IMG/VR virus record: IMGVR_UViG_3300025592_000043
Location: 1 to 33,179 of that record
From: a virus
DNA: 33,179 bases
Reading direction: 5' to 3' (one strand)
Positions 562-15,175 of this stretch are shown here, in pieces; the stretch's first letter is position 1; every line of letters starts with the position of its first letter. The notes below the pieces were generated by a model. That model saw only the letters and a program-made list of their open reading frames with translations. It had not been told where the DNA came from and searched no databases. The position numbers were made by a program, and so were the translations under genes.

Positions 562-1023
562 CTAAATAGTCCTTAGTAATAGTCTGCTCATTTCATCAAA
601 GTAATTCCTGCCGTACATCATCTTAGTAACACTCTTATGAGAGTCTAATACCAAAGGTGCTTCAACTTTAGACCCACCAAGATTGTGTTGCTTATTATAA
701 TTGGGTTGTTTTGATAATCGTTTTATATCAGTAATTCCGTTTGATAATCTATTACGACAAGTACATAGTGGAACACCGTATTTGTTTGAGACTTGCCTTG
801 CTGTTTGTGTAGTTCCGTCAGACAGTGTGTATTCCTTGCACTTGTAAGTACGCTTAGGTCTATTAGCACCAACAACTCTAAATACAGAAACAGGGTCAGT
901 GTACTTCTCAAGTCTGCAACGAGCAGATGGTGTTGACATATGTAATTTCTTGGCTAACTCGCCTGGTGTTATTTCAGTGCCATCGTCTAGCGTGTACACT
1001 TTTTGTTTTCTATTATCTCCCAT
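562..1023 (-). CDS. Protein with duplicated HTH-like repeat, last gene of the modification cassette
   Basis: A 153-aa protein of unknown function. I chose the ATG at 1023 because AAGGAGT lies about 10 bases upstream. The frame stays open to an ATG at 1053, but that would overlap the CmoA-like gene further and lacks a ribosome binding site. Two related units are visible. One begins KVYTLDDGTEITPGELAKKL (residues ~8-40); the other begins KEYTLSDGTTQTARQVSNKY (~60-92). Each consists of a YTL-DGT strand followed by a helix-turn-helix-like segment (ELAKKLHMSTPSARCRL and QVSNKYGVPLCTCRNRL). Such repeats occur in DNA-binding phage proteins and next to homing nucleases, but I see no nuclease motif. 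It overlaps the upstream CmoA-like gene by 11 bases, so it is co-transcribed with both modification genes. Confidence 0.7.
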   Translation of the reverse strand: MGDNRKQKVYTLDDGTEITPGELAKKLHMSTPSARCRLEKYTDPVSVFRVVGANRPKRTYKCKEYTLSDGTTQTARQVSNKYGVPLCTCRNRLSNGITDIKRLSKQPNYNKQHNLGGSKVEAPLVLDSHKSVTKMMYGRNYFDEMSRLLLRTI

Positions 1024-1678
1024 TAGAACAATACTCCTTGCTTTGTACGACATAACCCAAAAAATTATAACTTTGCCAAACAGGGGTTACTCTGCCTAAC
1101 TCAGTAAGTTCGTTAATAAGTTCAGACTCGGTTTTGCAAAACATAGAAACAGACAACTGATTATCTTTGTCTAGTATCTCCGAGTCGGTAAAATTCTCTC
1201 TCTTTTTCTGTATGTGCATTCTATGTAAAAGAGTCTGTAATCGTGTGTCGTCCAAATACACCTTTTCTGCCACTAAAAATATCGAACCTTTGTCGATGTG
1301 TCTCTTTATTGCTTTAAGGGTTTTCTGACGCTTAATTGAGCCTAGAAACTGCAAAAAGAACATACTTGATATTACACCTACATCAGCAAGTTCGTTTAAT
1401 ACGTCTTCACAGTCTCCGACTATGTGTTTGAAACCATCAAATGTTTTCATGTTCACTTTGTCGATTCCAATATATTTACAATTATCAACCTTTGGAAGAT
1501 TGTTTAGAAACCGACCTGTAGAACAACCTAAATCAACAGTTACACTGTCGGGCTGTGAGAACTCTTTAGCAATATGAGAAAATATGCAGTCTAAAGATTT
1601 GTAATTAGGGATAGACAGGTTGATGTGTTGGTCAAACTCTTCTTGTTCTTCAAAATTAAATGGGTCAATATTATTCAT
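1013..1678 (-). CDS. CmoA-like SAM-dependent enzyme (possible carboxy-SAM synthase)
   Basis: A 221-aa Rossmann-fold SAM enzyme. Motif I is VDLGCSTGRFL (residues 48-58), and the acidic end of the second strand is GID (71-73). It aligns along its length with CmoA: FDQHINLSIPNYKSL matches the CmoA start, FFLQFLGSIKRQKTL matches TLQFLEPSERQALL, and AEKVYLDD matches SEKFSFED. LLHRMHIQKKRENFTDSEI matches [20 protein letters not shown], and VWQSYNFLG matches LWFQCFNFG. CmoA makes carboxy-SAM from SAM and prephenate for tRNA wobble-uridine modification. The start at 1678 (ATGAATAA overlapping the methyltransferase stop) is preferred over 1717 because it gives tight coupling and a CmoA-like length. 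Oddity: in my from-memory alignment, E. coli Arg199, which contacts the carboxylate, falls on Asp172 (after Lys171). Carboxy-SAM synthesis is therefore not certain; it may be a divergent SAM-modifying enzyme. Confidence 0.8.
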   Translation of the reverse strand: MNNIDPFNFEEQEEFDQHINLSIPNYKSLDCIFSHIAKEFSQPDSVTVDLGCSTGRFLNNLPKVDNCKYIGIDKVNMKTFDGFKHIVGDCEDVLNELADVGVISSMFFLQFLGSIKRQKTLKAIKRHIDKGSIFLVAEKVYLDDTRLQTLLHRMHIQKKRENFTDSEILDKDNQLSVSMFCKTESELINELTELGRVTPVWQSYNFLGYVVQSKEYCSNGR

Positions 1679-2834
1679 TGTCAATTTCGTCCTGTACCAT
1701 TTGTATTCTAGTTCCAAGCCATTCCATTACATTTATTGCCATAGAACGCCCACAAGCCTCATATCTTTTTGATACAGGGCATTCTTCTTTAGGCTTTCCT
1801 CTGTACGGAATCTGTGTGTAGTTGTCGGGAAAACCTTGCAACCTCTCACATTCTAAAGGCGTTAATCTTCTAATAACATTATTACGTGGCACAGCACCTT
1901 CCAAAAAGACACATGGTTGTCTATTGCCACCTGTCATCGCTGTCAGAGTGGGAGAGCGCTCTTCTTTTTGTATTCTTGGCGCACCACCGTCAGGTGAACG
2001 CTGTTCAAAACATAATACTGTAGGCTTATCATTTGCTGTTAATGTGTAAGACGCACCATCTTGTTTAAATCCACTACCATTAGATTTAGTGTGGGAGGTC
2101 TGAATCGCTATAGGGTCTGTTACCAAGTCTGTAGGTGATTTGTAATCACGAGCGGCGATTGTAGATGCTACATTGTCTTGAACATATTTATCGCTTCTGA
2201 CAATGCGGTGAGTAGTTTTTTCGGTATTTGTTTTCCCCTTAGTTCTGCGCGGCGGAGAATACCCCGACATTGCTTCTCGGTCAAATAGAACCTTTGCGGG
2301 ATTTCTCCAATCTCCAAGATATCCGACAACGAACACACGCCTTCGTCTTTGAGGCACGGCTCTGTTATGTCGTTGTGTTCTGATGTACTGAGCGTCAAGA
2401 ACCCTGTAGGAGAACCCATACCCGCATTCTGCCAACCCGCCAAGGAAACTTCCAAAATCCCTTCCTTTGTTCGAGGACAAAACTCCGGGTACGTTTTCCC
2501 AAAGTACCCATTGTGGTTTAACTCTATCAACCAACTTAATAAACTCAAGTGCGAGGTTTCCACGGTCATCCTCGAATCCTTTTCTAAGCCCTGCAATACT
2601 GAAACTCGCACAGGGAGTTCCTCCAACGATGAGGGAAACAGGTCGTTTGAAATCATCTTTTTTTATCTCCGTAAAATCCCCGAAATTATTTACATCGGGG
2701 TAATGGTAATTTAGTACAGCAGAGCGAAACTCATCTATCTCAGACAACCCTTCGCATTTCCATCCCAAAGGTTTCCATGCAACAGATACAGCGTCTATTC
2801 CACTACATATAGATAGGTAGTTCATCCTACTCAT
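1671..2834 (-). CDS. C5-cytosine DNA methyltransferase with altered cofactor pocket
   Basis: A 387-aa Dcm-type enzyme with motifs in order: I LSICSGIDAVSVA (7-19), IV GGTPCASFS with catalytic Cys75 (71-79), VI WENVPG with Glu113, and VIII AVPQRRRRVFVVG (159-171). A target-recognition region follows (~200-320), then IX RRLTPLECERLQGFPDNY and X YEACGRSMAINVMEWLG. Two usually conserved residues differ: the Gln after the catalytic Cys is Ala76, and the Asn of motif X GNS is Arg363 (codon CGT, 1746-1748). The equivalent positions in M.HhaI are Q82 and N304, which line the SAM methyl pocket. The start could be the ATG at 2834 or at 2825; the second has GAGGG 9 bases upstream. The gene overlaps the downstream CmoA-like gene by 8 bases. 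It probably modifies phage DNA, possibly with a non-standard SAM; target sequence unknown. Confidence 0.93.
   Translation of the reverse strand: MSRMNYLSICSGIDAVSVAWKPLGWKCEGLSEIDEFRSAVLNYHYPDVNNFGDFTEIKKDDFKRPVSLIVGGTPCASFSIAGLRKGFEDDRGNLALEFIKLVDRVKPQWVLWENVPGVLSSNKGRDFGSFLGGLAECGYGFSYRVLDAQYIRTQRHNRAVPQRRRRVFVVGYLGDWRNPAKVLFDREAMSGYSPPRRTKGKTNTEKTTHRIVRSDKYVQDNVASTIAARDYKSPTDLVTDPIAIQTSHTKSNGSGFKQDGASYTLTANDKPTVLCFEQRSPDGGAPRIQKEERSPTLTAMTGGNRQPCVFLEGAVPRNNVIRRLTPLECERLQGFPDNYTQIPYRGKPKEECPVSKRYEACGRSMAINVMEWLGTRIQMVQDEIDNE
2168..2656 (-). other. Long same-strand alternative-frame ORF inside the methyltransferase
   Basis: A 162-codon frame lies wholly within the methyltransferase gene on the same strand in another frame. 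Its sequence (GWQNAGMGSPTGFLTLSTSE, CSLSDILEIGEIPQRF, ACRGILRRAELRG-type segment QCRGILRRAELRG) matches, as I recall, hypothetical phage proteins often annotated elsewhere. This part is opposite the AECGYGFSYRVLDAQ...QRRRR...GYLGDWR region of the methyltransferase, so its conservation may simply echo the conserved methyltransferase codons. I see no clear ribosome binding site. It is reported as a possible dual-coding frame, not as a firm gene. Confidence 0.25.
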
Positions 2835-3042
2835 CCCTCGCTTTCGGATTCCAAGATGGATGCCACCGCTTATAGAATGATTTAGTCCAAACGGTTCGTA
2901 GTTGATTCAAGTCCTTGCACAAGATGGTAACAAACATTCTTTCGTCTTCACCAAACTCATCGGTACATGAATCCACGCTGACTACACGCCAAGCCTCGAA
3001 TCCATGCCACCACCAAGTAGTTCCTATTTCGGGTTGGTTCAT
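2827..3042 (-). CDS. 71-aa hypothetical protein
   Basis: A small, Trp-rich protein (TTWWWHGFEAWRVVSVD at the N-terminus, then WTKSFYKRWHPSWNPKARDE). The ATG at 3042 overlaps the TGA of the preceding gene (ATGA), and GAAGGTGG precedes it. Its end overlaps the methyltransferase start by 8 bases. No family recognised. The SH3-like pattern GTTWWWHGFEAWRVVSV could be a small beta barrel of the kind found in short phage accessory proteins; this is inference. Confidence 0.7.
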   Translation of the reverse strand: MNQPEIGTTWWWHGFEAWRVVSVDSCTDEFGEDERMFVTILCKDLNQLRTVWTKSFYKRWHPSWNPKARDE

Positions 3043-3287
3043 GATGCCACCTTCGCTCTACGTTTAGCATTGTTCTCAAGTCTCACCTGCTCGTTCTCTT
3101 CAGCAAACCATTCTGCGATGACCGAATCTTTAAGTTGTTCAGTGGTCATGCCTGTGGTGTTGCTTAGAACTTTGAGGTGTCTAGGTCTAACAACCAATGT
3201 GTGATAGAAAGCCTCTCTCTCGTTTTTAAATTCAAAGACATATCCATCGCCTTCGTATTTGAAATCTTTTAATGGTACTTGGTTCAT
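3039..3287 (-). CDS. 82-aa hypothetical protein
   Basis: An 82-residue protein with a beta-rich start (FKYEGDGYVFEFKNEREAFYH) and a helical, charged C-terminus (VIAEWFAEENEQVRLENNAKRRAKVA). The start is well supported by GGAGATAAAAATG, the repeated leader of this operon. It is coupled by ATGA to the next gene. No family recognised. It lies in the early operon between SSB and the DNA modification genes. Confidence 0.75.
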   Translation of the reverse strand: MNQVPLKDFKYEGDGYVFEFKNEREAFYHTLVVRPRHLKVLSNTTGMTTEQLKDSVIAEWFAEENEQVRLENNAKRRAKVAS

Positions 3288-6328: not shown

Positions 6329-6634
6329 TTAAAAGTTAGTGTTTGGGTTTGTTTGCGCTTGGTTCTCAACATAAGCACAAGTTAAGCCGAAGTGTCTAGG
6401 TGCGCCACAACCATCGTAATCATCTTCATGGAACATAACACCTTTCTTTTCTAGTGAAGATAAGTAACCACCTACTTGTGATTCTGTAAGGTTAGGGAAG
6501 AAAGAGAAAACTTTTGGTAAAACCCAAGTAGTTCCATTGTCATGAGTTAAGTCACTCCAAGTTTCACAACCTGTCCAATTCTCTTTAGCAAATGTGTTTA
6601 CAAAGTTCTGTTCGTTTTTTGTTAGTGTGTTCAT
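6329..6634 (-). CDS. 101-aa hypothetical protein, first gene of the leftward operon
   Basis: The first gene after the main leftward promoter. The start follows ACGGAGATACAAA. It has the look of a small winged-helix protein: helix (TKNEQNFVNTFAKENW), helix (LTESQVGGYLSSLEKKGVMF) and a hairpin with DDYDGCGAP. The pattern SQVGGYLSSLEKKGVM resembles the recognition helix plus wing of MarR-like folds. Being first in the early operon would suit a host-takeover or regulatory protein. No family can be named. Confidence 0.75.
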   Translation of the reverse strand: MNTLTKNEQNFVNTFAKENWTGCETWSDLTHDNGTTWVLPKVFSFFPNLTESQVGGYLSSLEKKGVMFHEDDYDGCGAPRHFGLTCAYVENQAQTNPNTNF

Positions 6635-6754: not shown

Positions 6755-6791
6755 CCAGTGTTGTTTTTTCTTCCCAGTGTTGTTTTTTCTT
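6755..6791. repeat. 19-bp tandem direct repeat upstream of the leftward promoter
   Basis: CCAGTGTTGTTTTTTCTT occurs twice, at 6755-6772 and 6774-6791, with a period of 19 bases (about two helical turns). On the minus strand each copy is an A-rich tract followed by CACTGG. The block ends about 35 bases upstream of the -35 of the leftward promoter. It could be a pair of activator or repressor sites, an UP-like element, or part of an origin. Confidence 0.75.
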
Positions 6792-7120
6792 CATTTGCCC
6801 TCTTTATTTTAGACATAACTATCCCACTTCTACTCTTGTGGTAAGTGCCGTATTAGCGGTCTTAATCACATAAACCAAAGTCACGGTCTAAGAGTATCAG
6901 TTATCGAGCCGACCATGTTTGGTGGTCAACCCTCTATCTTCTTGGTCATTTCATTCCAAGCCAACTAACAAGGACTTACAAAACATTATGTTAGTATCGG
7001 TGGTTATTACAACTTACCACTGCGACCTAGTTGACAAGTGGGCAGTCATTGCTAGGATTTATATTTCTATTGCTTCTTTGAGTTGTGGTCAAATTTAAAA
7101 TTAAACACCATTGCAGTGTC

Positions 7121-7150
7121 TTGACCAAAGTGAATACTATAGGTTATAAT
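7121..7150 (+). promoter_or_regulatory. Rightward sigma70 promoter for a small RNA
   Basis: TTGACC (7121-7126) and a perfect TATAAT (7145-7150) are separated by 18 bases. Transcription should start at about 7157-7158. The next element downstream is a rho-independent terminator only some 45 bases later, with no open reading frame in between. Confidence 0.8.
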
Positions 7151-7157
7151 AGCACTC

Positions 7158-7216
7158 AGGTGGTCGCATCACCTAATTCAAGCCCTCGATTGATTATAGT
7201 CTTTCGGGGGTTTTTT
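7158..7216 (+). ncRNA. Candidate ~59-nt phage small RNA
   Basis: Bounded by the promoter at 7121-7150 and a terminator with a six-T run ending at 7216. The predicted transcript has a 5' hairpin, AGGTG-loop-CACCT (7158-7162 with 7170-7174), then a short A/U-rich single-stranded linker (AATTCA), then the terminator hairpin. No ORF with a start codon is present. It could be a trans-acting regulator of host or phage mRNA, a decoy, or a primer. I know of no matching RNA family. Confidence 0.65.
7183..7216 (+). terminator. Rho-independent terminator of the small RNA
   Basis: CCCTCGA (7183-7189) pairs with TCGGGGG (7204-7210), with one G-U wobble, followed by TTTTTT (7211-7216). The loop is 14 bases. 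It also insulates the rightward genes from any transcription starting further upstream in the control region. Confidence 0.85.
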
Positions 7217-7294
7217 ATTGAATAATGAAAATATCATACACTAATTGAAATCGTGGTTATTCTTTTTTTTAATATTCTCTATCTGTGGTGCTTT

Positions 7295-7314
7295 AAAAAA
7301 GGGATTTTATCCCT
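7295..7314 (-). terminator. Leftward rho-independent terminator in the control region
   Basis: Read on the minus strand, AGGGAT-AA-ATCCCT is followed by a run of T (complement of the A run at 7295-7300). It stops transcription coming leftward from about 7320-7480. No gene is known there, so it either blocks antisense transcription into the control region or ends a second small RNA from the complementary strand. Confidence 0.65.
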
Positions 7315-7321
7315 CAGAGGA

Positions 7322-9850: not shown

Positions 9851-11123
9851 AGCACAGATTGAGTTACCACCTAAGTTAGTTCCTGTCTTTGAGGGTGAAG
9901 CAAGATACAGAATAGCATACGGTGGACGTGGTTCAGGCAAGACAAGAACCTTTGCACTAATGACTGCTGTTATGGGTTATCGTTGGGGAATGGCAGGTAA
10001 GAAAGGACAGATACTATGCGCTCGTGAGTTTATGAACTCCCTAGACGATTCATCACTAGAAGAAATCAAGACATCCATAAGGTCAATAGACTGGCTTAAC
10101 GATTATTACGATGTGGGCGAGAAGTACATCAGGTCTAAAGACGGCAACATACATTACACCTTTGTAGGACTAAGACGTTCACTAGATGCTATTAAGTCTA
10201 AGGCACGTATCATGTTGGCTTGGGTGGATGAGGCAGAACCAATGAGCGACATGGCATGGCAGAAACTAATACCAACAGTTCGAGAAGAAGGCTCAGAGAT
10301 ATGGGCAACGTGGAATCCCGAATCAAAGTACAGCGCAACACATGAACGATTTAGAATATCACCACCTAAAAACTCTAAGATAGTTGAACTCAATTACACT
10401 GACAATCCTTGGTTTCCAGATGTACTAGAGGCAGAACGCCTAGAAGACAAAGCCAAACGTATCGATATGTACGAACACATTTGGGAAGGTGGCTTCTTAG
10501 TATTCAGTGAAGGCGCTTACTATTCAACAGAGATGCGCTTGGCTAAGGAAGAAGATAGAGTAGGTGAGGTTAGATACGATAGAGATAAGGGTGTAGTAAC
10601 TGCTTGGGATTTAGGAATAGGCGACTCAACATCTATTTGGTTTGCTCAGTACATCGGCACAGAGATACACATCATTGACTATTACGAAGCATCAGGTGTT
10701 GGATTAGACCACTATGCTATCGTATTACAAGAGAAAGGTTACGTGTATGAACAACACATATTACCGCATGATGTAAGGGTTAGAGAACTAGGCACAGGCA
10801 AGTCAAGACTAGAGACATTAGATGGTTTAGGCATTAGAAATGTAGAGATAGCACCTGACCTAAGAGTAGATGACGGCATTCAATCAGCACGTTCAATGAT
10901 TCATAAATGTTGGTTTGATGCAAATAAATGTGAAAAAGGTATCGATTGTTTGATAAACTACACACGAGATTGGGATGAAAACGGTAAGACTTGGCGCTCA
11001 AGACCTCGACATGATTGGGCATCGCATGGCGCAGATGCTTTTAGATATTTGGCGATAGGTTACAGACCAATGAACGAATCTTGGGGTAAGCCTATAAAAC
11101 GTAACATTAAGGGAGTTGTTTAA
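9843..11123 (+). CDS. terL: Terminase large subunit
   Basis: A 426-aa packaging motor starting at GTG 9843. Walker A is AYGGRGSGKT (25-34) and Walker B is IMLAWVDEAEPM (about 120-131). The C-terminal nuclease has Asp256 in AWDLGIGDSTS, Asp in LPHDVR (about 309) and Asp in ASHGADAFRY (about 398). These mark the RNase H-like fold of the Terminase_3/6 type. It uses ATP to pump DNA into the prohead and cuts the concatemer. The length is typical. It overlaps the next gene by one base. Confidence 0.96.
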   Translation: MSKAQIELPPKLVPVFEGEARYRIAYGGRGSGKTRTFALMTAVMGYRWGMAGKKGQILCAREFMNSLDDSSLEEIKTSIRSIDWLNDYYDVGEKYIRSKDGNIHYTFVGLRRSLDAIKSKARIMLAWVDEAEPMSDMAWQKLIPTVREEGSEIWATWNPESKYSATHERFRISPPKNSKIVELNYTDNPWFPDVLEAERLEDKAKRIDMYEHIWEGGFLVFSEGAYYSTEMRLAKEEDRVGEVRYDRDKGVVTAWDLGIGDSTSIWFAQYIGTEIHIIDYYEASGVGLDHYAIVLQEKGYVYEQHILPHDVRVRELGTGKSRLETLDGLGIRNVEIAPDLRVDDGIQSARSMIHKCWFDANKCEKGIDCLINYTRDWDENGKTWRSRPRHDWASHGADAFRYLAIGYRPMNESWGKPIKRNIKGVV

Positions 11124-14100
11124 TGGGTTTATTTGATGAGTTGTTAAGTCAGCCAGGTGTTACAGCAACAGGCGGTGGCACAGGGTACGACCCAAGAGAT
11201 GACGAGATGGAAGTGCGCTTCACAGCAGAAGGCACTCCTTACAATGCTAGACCTGGTACTCCGTTACATGAAGGACACACTAGAGCAAACCAACCTATGT
11301 TCGACCTTCCAACGGTCGAAGTACCTAAAGAACCATCATTACTGAATTACGGATATGACCAAACTGTACAGCCACCTCAACAAGTTGACGTAAATCCTAC
11401 GCAAGAATACATTGACCCTATGTCGTTATACAACAGACAAGGCAGAGCAGATTACATCCCACAGAACATTGTAGATACAAACACAGTATTCGGCAGTCCA
11501 AGTCTAGGCTCATTACCAAACCCTACTCAAGACGCTAGTGCTATGGAAGCACTTAACAAAGCATCAGCAGAACGTGATAAACAAGCGCAGATTGAAGCAC
11601 AACTACAGGTATTACTAAAGGCTCAAGGACTAGATAATCGTGCTGAGTGGGATATGCGTAGAGCAGACGACCAATTTGCTAACCTAGACAAGCAGTACGA
11701 TATTAACAACCAAGTAGCCACAGATGACTTCGGCAACCCACTATTAAACGCTAATGAGCATGGTCAAACAAGTTACGACATAAACGCAATCAAACAAGAG
11801 TCTCTTGACAATCTAATGATGCAGGATAGAAAGCCTGTAGCCAATGTAGCCACCCCACCTGTAGTAGCACCAACAGACAACAAACCTGATTATCCAAGCA
11901 ACATGACACCTTATGCAATAAACCTACTAGAGGAACAACGCAAAAGAAACGAGATGTTTCAGGGTATAGGTGATACAGCAACAGGTATTTATGAAGGCGC
12001 TAAGACATTAGGCTCAGATATTTATGATGACGTTACAGGTTTTGACTATAAAGGATTAGGTTCAGATATTTATAAGGAAGGTGCTGACGCTGTACAAGGC
12101 GCAAAGGATTTATACACAGACTTTAATAAGCCTGATACTCGTACTCACAGACAAAGGATGATTGATAATCAGACTAATGTTGTTGAGCCTGTTAAAGAGT
12201 TTATAACTGATACTATTCCTGAATTTGCAGGTGATGCTTATGAAGGCATCTTAGGTCCTCTTGTAGGTAATTGGTATGACAACCTGTCTAAAGATGCAGA
12301 AGGTCCTACACAAGAGTACGATTCAGCAACAGGCGTTCAGAAACCTATGGTGTTTAACTTTAAGAAGTCTCTAGCAACAGAAGTTAAAGGACTTGTGGAT
12401 GCTGCAACAAGTCCTGTAGAGACAGCAGATGCTATCGCTAGTGTAATTTCAGGCGCAGTTCAACACACGCTACCTGATGATATGGCTTGGAATGAAGACT
12501 CTAAGAAGATGGCAGGGGCTATTGGACAAATGTACGCTGAAAGATATGGCTCTATAGATGGGTTTAAGAAAGCATTAGCAGAAGACCCTGTTCCTGTATT
12601 AATTGAATTAACAGGCGCAGGATTAGTTAGTAAGGTGGTTGCAGCGAGAACCCTTGCTTCTATGAAGAAAATTGATATGGGTGAGGCTTTAGAGAAGTTC
12701 ACAGACAAGGCTGTAGAGACAGCAACAATGGGAATGGAAAAGAGAGGGTTTCGTAAGGAACTGATGGTTTATCATGGTTCGCCTCATAAGTTTGAAAAGT
12801 TCGACCACAAGTATATGAGTTCAGGTGAAGGTGGTCAAATGATGGGTTATGGTACTTATCTTGCAGAGCATCCTAGTGTTGCTAAAACTTATGCGCCTCG
12901 CGACATGGTCATGGAAGACAAGTTATTGAAATTGTATGAAGACGCTATGGACTTTAGAAGACCTGGTGGCGAAGACGTTTTTGCCTATGAGGTTTATGAA
13001 AGAGCATTAGACCATTGGACTCCAAAGGAAATATCAGAATACATCAAAGACACATATAAGGGCGATGATTTAGTTAAAGCAGAAAAAGCACTTGGCAATT
13101 TCAAAAAAATGTATGAGGAGTCTGACAGTTATTTATACGATATAGATTTGCCCGATAAAACCATTGCTAAGATGCTAGACTCTGATAAAACAATTATGGA
13201 GCAATCTGATTACGTTATATCTGCGTTAGACGATATTTACCCTAACCTGTCTAAAGAAATTAACAACGCAAAACGAATTAAGCAGAAGTTAGACAAGACT
13301 ACAAACAAAGCAGAAAGAGATAGTTTGTTTCAAGAGTATGCTGATATTAAAAATCGTTTAGGTTTCAACTTGGATGACAATGCTCATTCTCTCTATAGAG
13401 ATTTAGAGAATACACTAGGCTCTGACAAGAAGGCTTCAAAACTTCTTGAAGATAAAGGAATACCAGGTGTGAAGTTTTGGGATGGAGATTCAAGAGGTTC
13501 AGGTGAAGGAACAAGGAACTTTGTCATATTTAACGAGAATAGCGCTAAGGTTCTAAAGCGTAATGAGGTGGATATACCTAATATTGACGATGGTGTATTA
13601 GGTCAGATAGGTAAGACAAAAAACCCTACAACCGATTTAAGAAACTCTCTCAGAGAGGGTGGATATAAAATAGACATGGACGAAGGCATCTCGGGCGAAA
13701 TTAAGTTAAGTCGTATCGAAGTTCCACCTAATGTTCGGGGCAAAGGACTTGGTACAGATGCGATGAATCAGATTGTTAAAATGGCTGATGAAAGTGGCAA
13801 GACTATAACTTTAACACCTGATACATCATTTGGCGCAACCTCAGTTTCGAGATTAAAGAAATTCTATAAGAAGTTTGGATTTGTAGAGAACAAGGGTAAG
13901 AACAAAGACTTTTTATACAAAGATTCAATGCTACGACTACCTAACAGTCCAAAAGTGGGCAAACCTAACAAAGTAACAGATGGTCTATTAGGTCAGACAC
14001 CTGTCAAGGGTGTACACCTAACCATGGAAGAGTTTGATGACTTCAAGATGGGTGCTACAAGAGACTCAGAGCCAGGCATCCACTTTGGTACTAATTCGGC

Positions 14101-15175
14101 ATCAGGCGAGAAACTGATTGAAAACAAGAAGTTTCAGATTGAGAATAATTATATAGGCAAGCCTAGAAACCCTGTTAATTCTCCACAAGGTATTAAGAAG
14201 ATACAGGCTGACTTAAACATTAGTAAGCCACTTAGAGTATTTGAAGAACAAAGAATGATGGGCGGAAGATGGGATGCTCACCAAATTGGTAGAAGTTTGT
14301 TTGAAGTAGATGAGTTGCCAAGAAGGTTTACTGAAGCAGACAGAGAAGCGTGGTACGAAGGGTATTTATCTTCCAAGGTTACTATTGATGGACGAGAAGT
14401 AGATGTACCACTTGAAGTCAACAAAGATGGCTCTACTCCAGATTGGAATTATTCAGAGTTAGATGCCAAGCAAGAATCAGAGTGGATTAATAATTTTCTT
14501 AATGAACGTGGGTACGACCATATTATCTATGACAACGCTTATGAAGGTGGTGGTGATTCACTTGGTGTATATGATTTATCTAAGATTAAGCAAACAGGCG
14601 CAGAGCGCTATGCAACATTAGCAATACCTACAGGTGGTTTACTAGCAACAGATGACGAAGCCCAAGCAGAAGAAGAACTTACAGACGGATTAATAAACAA
14701 CGTCAAGTCTTGGAAGCCTAACAACAATCTTGTAACCTTCGTTAAGACTATGGAGAACGACCCACTAAGGGTAGGCAACACCAAGGTCAAAGAATATGAT
14801 GATGTAGGACACAAAGCAAAGGGTTACGGCACTAAGTCAGGACTACTTGCACAAGATACAGAGGCAGAAGCAACCAACGCGCTTAATAAGAAGTTAGTTG
14901 ATGCTAACAAGGCAGTTGACAGACTTGTTAAAATAGACTTAAATGAAGACCAAAGGAATGCGTTAGTATCATTAGTCTATAACGTAGGTGCAACAGGTTT
15001 TGGTAAATCTAATGCCCTAAAGGCGTTAAATAATGGTAATATAAAGACATTCTTAAAAGAAGCGTTCGACCCTAAAGTGGGCTTTGTCAAGACAAAAGGT
15101 AAGATTGTTAAAGGCTTAGTCAATAGAAGAGCGAGAGAAAAGCAGATTTTCACTAAGGGTAACTATGGCAATTAA
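11123..15175 (+). CDS. 1350-aa polyvalent protein: two ADP-ribosyltransferase-like domains, GNAT, lysozyme-like
   Basis: A giant multidomain protein directly after terL. Residues 1-~500 are low-complexity and helical. About 545-820 form an ADP-ribosyltransferase-like (LPD/ART) domain: VYHGSPHKFEKFD, MMGYGTYLAEHPSVAKTYA and RNFVIFNENSAKVL. About 840-955 are a GNAT-like acetyltransferase: IEVPPNVRGKGLGTDAMNQI and FYKKFGFVENKG. About 960-1165 are a second ART-like domain: GVHLTMEEFDDF, GIHFGTNSASG and IIYDNAYEGGGDSLGVYDLS. About 1195-1350 resemble a GH24 lysozyme: FVKTMENDPL, YDDVGHKAKGYGT and ALVSLVYNVGATGFG. Such polyvalent proteins are usually packaged and ejected with DNA to modify host targets. 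In the lysozyme part the usual catalytic Thr before GYG is replaced by Ala/Lys. Confidence 0.85.
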   Translation: MGLFDELLSQPGVTATGGGTGYDPRDDEMEVRFTAEGTPYNARPGTPLHEGHTRANQPMFDLPTVEVPKEPSLLNYGYDQTVQPPQQVDVNPTQEYIDPMSLYNRQGRADYIPQNIVDTNTVFGSPSLGSLPNPTQDASAMEALNKASAERDKQAQIEAQLQVLLKAQGLDNRAEWDMRRADDQFANLDKQYDINNQVATDDFGNPLLNANEHGQTSYDINAIKQESLDNLMMQDRKPVANVATPPVVAPTDNKPDYPSNMTPYAINLLEEQRKRNEMFQGIGDTATGIYEGAKTLGSDIYDDVTGFDYKGLGSDIYKEGADAVQGAKDLYTDFNKPDTRTHRQRMIDNQTNVVEPVKEFITDTIPEFAGDAYEGILGPLVGNWYDNLSKDAEGPTQEYDSATGVQKPMVFNFKKSLATEVKGLVDAATSPVETADAIASVISGAVQHTLPDDMAWNEDSKKMAGAIGQMYAERYGSIDGFKKALAEDPVPVLIELTGAGLVSKVVAARTLASMKKIDMGEALEKFTDKAVETATMGMEKRGFRKELMVYHGSPHKFEKFDHKYMSSGEGGQMMGYGTYLAEHPSVAKTYAPRDMVMEDKLLKLYEDAMDFRRPGGEDVFAYEVYERALDHWTPKEISEYIKDTYKGDDLVKAEKALGNFKKMYEESDSYLYDIDLPDKTIAKMLDSDKTIMEQSDYVISALDDIYPNLSKEINNAKRIKQKLDKTTNKAERDSLFQEYADIKNRLGFNLDDNAHSLYRDLENTLGSDKKASKLLEDKGIPGVKFWDGDSRGSGEGTRNFVIFNENSAKVLKRNEVDIPNIDDGVLGQIGKTKNPTTDLRNSLREGGYKIDMDEGISGEIKLSRIEVPPNVRGKGLGTDAMNQIVKMADESGKTITLTPDTSFGATSVSRLKKFYKKFGFVENKGKNKDFLYKDSMLRLPNSPKVGKPNKVTDGLLGQTPVKGVHLTMEEFDDFKMGATRDSEPGIHFGTNSASGEKLIENKKFQIENNYIGKPRNPVNSPQGIKKIQADLNISKPLRVFEEQRMMGGRWDAHQIGRSLFEVDELPRRFTEADREAWYEGYLSSKVTIDGREVDVPLEVNKDGSTPDWNYSELDAKQESEWINNFLNERGYDHIIYDNAYEGGGDSLGVYDLSKIKQTGAERYATLAIPTGGLLATDDEAQAEEELTDGLINNVKSWKPNNNLVTFVKTMENDPLRVGNTKVKEYDDVGHKAKGYGTKSGLLAQDTEAEATNALNKKLVDANKAVDRLVKIDLNEDQRNALVSLVYNVGATGFGKSNALKALNNGNIKTFLKEAFDPKVGFVKTKGKIVKGLVNRRAREKQIFTKGNYGN

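Follow-up and report, generated by a model that had tools for sequence, protein, structure and literature searches.

Background

RNA-run replication origins are already a known kind, since RNA-based origins of mycobacteriophage prophages have been demonstrated (PMC7157519). In that report, a region of ~600 bp that makes a non-coding RNA suffices for plasmid replication of the prophage, and RNA-based origins belong to Alma, LadyBird, RedRock, Gladiator and Et2Brutus, which are extrachromosomal prophages of phages without repA (PMC7157519). This is the one close precedent found for ColE1-like phage origins in the open-licence literature; an earlier description elsewhere is possible. Here we describe a locus in an uncultured phage, taken from an IMG/VR virus record 33,179 bases long (the whole of which is called the window), that is probably an antisense-controlled, RNA-primed replication origin.

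Genomic setting

The genes of the window fall into two divergent groups.

Left-facing, early genes: SSB, the Sak annealing protein, methyltransferases and small ORFs
Right-facing genes: a small HTH-like protein, a VRR nuclease, YbcO, NinB and terminase, then virion genes (the latter by position)

The small RNA cassette sits between these divergent operons, with early recombination (Sak) on one side and the HTH-nuclease-terminase genes on the other. The early operon of the window begins at 6634. The cumulative GC skew of the window reaches its minimum at ~7 kb, i.e. at the cassette locus, and such a flip is also expected from the flip in transcription at the same place.

Among the early ORFs of the window, none was recognised as an initiator, helicase, primase or polymerase, and no obvious initiator candidate was seen in near-complete relatives. 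Some of the early ORFs have no known function, and an unrecognised initiator protein is conceivable among them. In L074, a terminase relative (66%) that lacks the cassette, the early region (1540-3152) encodes an O-like initiator and a DnaB-like helicase.

Two other genes of the window are recorded here. The product of 562-1053 (minus strand) is an early DNA-binding protein in which the motif YTLxDGTxxT is repeated; its match is Ren-like/HNH-like, and it adjoins SSB in several relatives. Directly after the terminase is a very long ORF (11123-15175, 1350 aa) with an endolysin-like C-terminus (phrog_7), the middle of which is strongly divergent among relatives.

The small RNA gene and its conservation

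The small RNA gene of the window has the following parts.

7121-7150, plus strand: promoter of the small RNA (TTGACC at 7121-7126, an 18-nt spacer and TATAAT at 7145-7150)
7158-7216, plus strand: small RNA of ~59 nt, predicted to be an RNA I-like antisense RNA from its fold, 24 homologous cassettes and compensatory changes
7158-7174, plus strand: hairpin 1, by folding
7175-7179, plus strand: unpaired linker, by folding
7180-7213, plus strand: terminator hairpin, ending in UUUUUU (U-run 7211-7216)

The RNA would start with AGGTG at 7158, which is 7 nt past the TATAAT. A promoter scanner gives TTGACC-18-TATAAT a score of 11/12 and places it in the top two of the promoter-like sites in 7 kb. Taken together, such sites are no commoner than in shuffled sequence; therefore, the promoter alone is not evidence of a gene. 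The fold has an energy of -24.4 kcal/mol, compared with -11.1 for shuffles (z of -5.1), and none of 200 shuffles was as good. The terminator was missed by a simple scanner because of its long loop. There is no ATG within 7158-7216.

Relatives were found by pattern and covariance-model searches of phage contigs, and in relatives picked by their terminase further copies were read immediately before the HTH gene. The initial annotation had named conservation across related phages beforehand as a test of this gene, and the same small RNA was present in 24 phage contigs, a count inflated by relatedness as it includes near-duplicates such as L225/L230, L233/L269 and L041/L042. In all 24 cassettes, a short 5' hairpin lies 6-12 nt past a TATAAT and is followed by a linker and a terminator. 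The 15 close members represent about seven groups, whose flanks beyond the opposing promoter described below are unrelated from group to group. The consensus -35 box is found only in close type A relatives (defined below) and is not kept in more distant copies.

The stem of hairpin 1 (AGGUG/CACCU) is constant in the 15 close members and its loop is variable. In distant members the stem is GGUG/CACC, GCAG/CUGC or GGUA/UACC, which are compensatory changes, and the loops are fairly conserved (GGGGCAA) in the distant clade. The terminator hairpin covaries throughout the 24 cassettes. The linker reads AAUUC, AUUUC, AACUC or AAUUU, and AGUUUUAGA in distant copies. In antisense copy-number RNAs, the loop varies and the stem stays fixed. 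On these comparative grounds the small RNA is encoded by a conserved gene. The sequence, fold, conservation and compensatory changes together bear out the original proposal of a self-contained gene of ~59 nt, made of a promoter, a hairpin and a terminator and containing no ORF.

The exact small RNA pattern was absent from GTDB representatives, which were searched for a host genome, and a TerL search for the host returned distant prophages only and no host. Rfam scans, including those for ColE1 RNA I/II, gave nothing at threshold; the sub-threshold matches were NsiR1, a His leader and others. No tRNA or tmRNA was found. No record in the phage collection had significant similarity to this region of the window, and the plasmid collection gave no significant match.

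The opposing promoter and the predicted long RNA

The strand opposite the small RNA carries a second set of features.

7233-7238, minus strand: -10 box (TATGAT) of the opposing promoter, ~17 nt past the small RNA terminator
6805-7226, minus strand: predicted long RNA (RNA II-like, type A) of ~420 nt, from conservation and a strand-biased fold
7087-7126, minus strand: conserved hairpin region GGTCAA...TTGACC enclosing CAC..GTG, which shares bases with the small RNA -35
7026-7056, minus strand: hairpin CCTAG..CTAGG of the long RNA, which is CCAAG..CTTGG in L196
6823-6829, minus strand: 3' arm AAGTGGG (as read on the minus strand), which can pair with the hairpin loop 7036-7042

A TATNAT that faces back toward the small RNA is present in 23 of the 24 cassettes, compared with ~10% of random stretches from the same loci. 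It has near-constant spacing within each clade, and the sequence past the small RNA terminator is otherwise unrelated between phage groups. Thirteen of the 15 close members have the box as an exact TATAAT, the window and L088 have TATGAT, and L225 and L230 have a perfect opposing sigma-70 promoter (TTGACA-16-TATAAT). The window's own opposing promoter is weak, with TATGAT and a poor -35. Transcription from this box, with a predicted start near 7226, would produce the complement of the entire small RNA followed by the region upstream of the small RNA gene. The 5' part of the predicted long RNA (7216-7158) is thus perfectly complementary to the small RNA. The divergent internal TTGACC boxes were considered as the type A long-RNA promoter and dropped, since L256 loses the TTGACC of the small RNA and keeps the hairpin; the conserved opposing -10, which lies beyond the small RNA, also disfavours them.

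The long RNA would contain about 300-420 nt of conserved, structured, non-coding sequence. In the window, 6805-7130 is non-coding yet nearly unchanged in relatives with differing flanks. The longest ORF on the long RNA is ~33 aa in the window and 20-60 aa across those checked, and the indels are not in threes; a coding role for the region was therefore rejected. The long RNA comes in two types without detectable similarity, which have the small RNA in common and align poorly elsewhere. Type A consists of the window, L088, L012, L241, L196, L194 and L256. Type B consists of L010, L225, L228/L230, L233, L235, L253, L267/L268, L269/L270, L018, L022, L030, L041-L044, L046 and L048.

Changes on both sides of a consensus pair are seen at 23 of 51 pairs in type B and 12 of 80 in type A. 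When the same alignments are folded on each strand, the alifold z is -9.7 for the antisense strand vs -7.0 for the small-RNA strand in type B, and -5.6 vs -3.4 in type A. GU:AC cells in type B number 118:7 on the antisense strand vs 53:34 on the small-RNA strand. With single sequences, the fold z-scores show a clear difference between the strands in type B alone. Covariation and wobble pairs thus favour a long RNA on the strand antisense to the small RNA, and a long RNA on the small RNA's own strand is disfavoured by both the alifold z and the GU:AC comparison.

The type B long RNA has a conserved covarying hairpin at its 3' end, followed by a U-rich tract; no clear terminator was seen at the 3' end of type A. 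In type A, the loop 7036-7042 and the 3' arm change together in L194/L256 (ACCCCT/AGGGGT), which is suggestive of a possible pseudoknot that closes the conserved domain by pairing of this loop with the arm at 6823-6829.

Two sequence elements lie near the cassette. A tandem CAGTGTTGTTTTTTCTTC repeat (6761-6796) is located just past the end of the conserved region and is missing in L084, which is otherwise ~96% identical. On the other side, a left-facing terminator-like hairpin (GGGATAAAATCCC-TTTTTT) is located at 7290-7315 on the minus strand. A conserved stretch in which CACTTCGTT motifs recur comes before it, with conservation to about 7415, and most type B relatives have a counterpart between the cassette and the HTH gene. 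This element is possibly another small RNA, or a terminator that guards the cassette.

Orientation and proposed function

The same two operons flank the cassette wherever a contig covers both sides, and the cassette is always kept together with the long region. Its orientation varies. The long RNA is directed at the Sak operon in the window, L088, L012 and L196, and at the HTH-terminase operon in the type B phages L010, L225, L230, L233, L235, L253 and L267; in L194, which is type A, it is directed away from Sak. Since the orientation relative to the flanking genes differs between phages, the cassette, judged from these arrangements, is autonomous from those genes and is not the leader of one particular operon.

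The antisense geometry of the small and long RNAs, as read from the aligned cassettes, is well supported, and antisense regulation of the long RNA is the most likely role of the small RNA. A terminated antisense RNA against the 5' end of a long RNA, a movable cassette and the lack of a recognised initiator together give the anatomy of ColE1 RNA I/RNA II. By analogy, the long RNA most likely primes replication of the phage DNA. We infer that both RNAs are made, that their pairing inhibits and that the output is replication. Leftward transcription from ~7226 to ~6805 would produce a long, highly folded non-coding RNA, and rightward transcription of 7158-7216 on the opposite strand would produce a short stable RNA complementary to its 5' end. 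Pairing of the two would alter the folding of the long RNA, which, like ColE1 RNA II, would prime phage DNA replication using host enzymes. The small RNA, like RNA I, would set the frequency of priming. The initial annotation had suggested that the small RNA might itself serve as a replication primer, which came close; however, it is the long RNA, from the opposite strand, that probably acts as primer, with the small RNA as its probable inhibitor.

An unlikely alternative is that the small RNA is an antisense attenuator or immunity RNA on a structured leader, which controls readthrough into an operon as in the CI RNA immunity of phage P4 or the attenuation of plasmids pIP501/pT181. The antisense geometry would be identical, the long RNA of the window would read toward the early operon starting at 6634, and type A ends without an evident terminator. 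However, the operon downstream of the long RNA differs between phages, the early operon of the window has its own promoter-like site downstream of the long RNA (TTGACA-17-TACAAT, 6720-6692), and the type B RNA ends in the hairpin and U-rich tract.

The long RNA could instead be an independent functional RNA, involved in host takeover, anti-defence or packaging, with the small RNA as its antisense silencer. Its size, conservation and structure without likeness to known families would agree with this, as would the autonomy of the cassette. Two dissimilar types in the same slot would then need to be two unrelated RNAs with the same role, and replication would be left unexplained given that no initiator was recognised, so that this also seems unlikely.

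Regulation of host or phage mRNAs in trans by the small RNA, with the opposing promoter and the long region forming an element of their own, is very unlikely. The anatomy is typical of sRNAs and there is a weak resemblance to NsiR1 (22 bits vs a gathering score of 39); however, the linker is not conserved and so offers no fixed single-stranded seed, the opposing -10 is retained at its clade-specific spacing, and the cassette is never separated from the long region. Trans action through an AAUUCA linker, as first suggested, is not favoured for the same variability of the linker and because a perfectly complementary partner is encoded opposite. A promoter-terminator leader of the late operon, with anti-termination of the lambda pR' type, would suit the window, where the small RNA points at the HTH-nuclease-terminase operon, but is contradicted by the reverse orientation in type B phages and can practically be discarded.

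A broader form of the RNA-primed origin is proposed more tentatively. This phage family may replicate without an initiator protein, by an RNA I/II-like pair that evolved independently of ColE1 and consists of one antisense RNA and at least two unrelated primer RNAs, with the cassette inverted or exchanged as a unit. If the reading as an RNA-primed origin is right, many small uncultured phages without a recognisable initiator have an RNA-run origin, which is invisible to annotation because there is no gene. It would also extend plasmid-type antisense copy-number control to phage origins, imply loop-defined incompatibility groups in these phages and add two large structured RNA families that are absent from Rfam.

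Comparison with known systems

As in ColE1/pMB1, a short untranslated RNA is complementary over its full length to the 5' end of a long non-coding RNA that is structured. The opposing promoters, the stem-loop antisense RNA ending in a terminator and the lack of a recognised initiator protein are also shared, here at the level of sequence. In ColE1 itself, RNA II primes after an RNase H cut and is extended by DNA polymerase I, and RNA I inhibits the process. Many ColE1-like plasmids have no Rom/Rop protein. Unlike ColE1, whose antisense RNA is ~108 nt with three hairpins, the phage RNA is ~59 nt with two; the cassette is in a phage genome, has two unrelated long-RNA types and would act as a primer by inference. 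A direct comparison with ColE1 gave no long match. A 24-nt similarity (83-88%) to ColE1 1121-1144, near its origin, was seen in L010 (4693-4716) and L233 (12518-12541) with E of 0.013 and 0.083; it is probably due to chance, as it occurs in two members only and its sense is opposite to that of the predicted long RNA. With no Rfam, plasmid-collection or direct match, the cassette does not belong to the ColE1 family by homology.

Systems of the CopA/CopT and RNAIII type also have a cis-encoded antisense RNA with a conserved stem and variable loop that acts on a leader. These control the mRNA of a Rep protein, whereas no conserved ORF is located downstream here. P4 CI RNA, P22 sar and lambda OOP are likewise small phage antisense RNAs; however, their targets are mRNAs or the leaders of specific operons, and the target here would be a long non-coding RNA of variable orientation.

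The mycobacteriophage origins are ~600-bp regions of a phage genome that make a non-coding RNA and work without a protein product (PMC7157519). The window has a conserved region without a long ORF, and an RNA is predicted from it. In the available portions of that report, they adjoin parABS in temperate actinobacteriophages and no antisense partner is described, whereas the window has no ParA/ParB among the early ORFs scanned and has an antisense small RNA (PMC7157519). Relative to the origins as described in those portions, what is new is an origin-like locus with no parABS, with a cis-antisense partner and with unrelated long-RNA types under one small RNA (PMC7157519).
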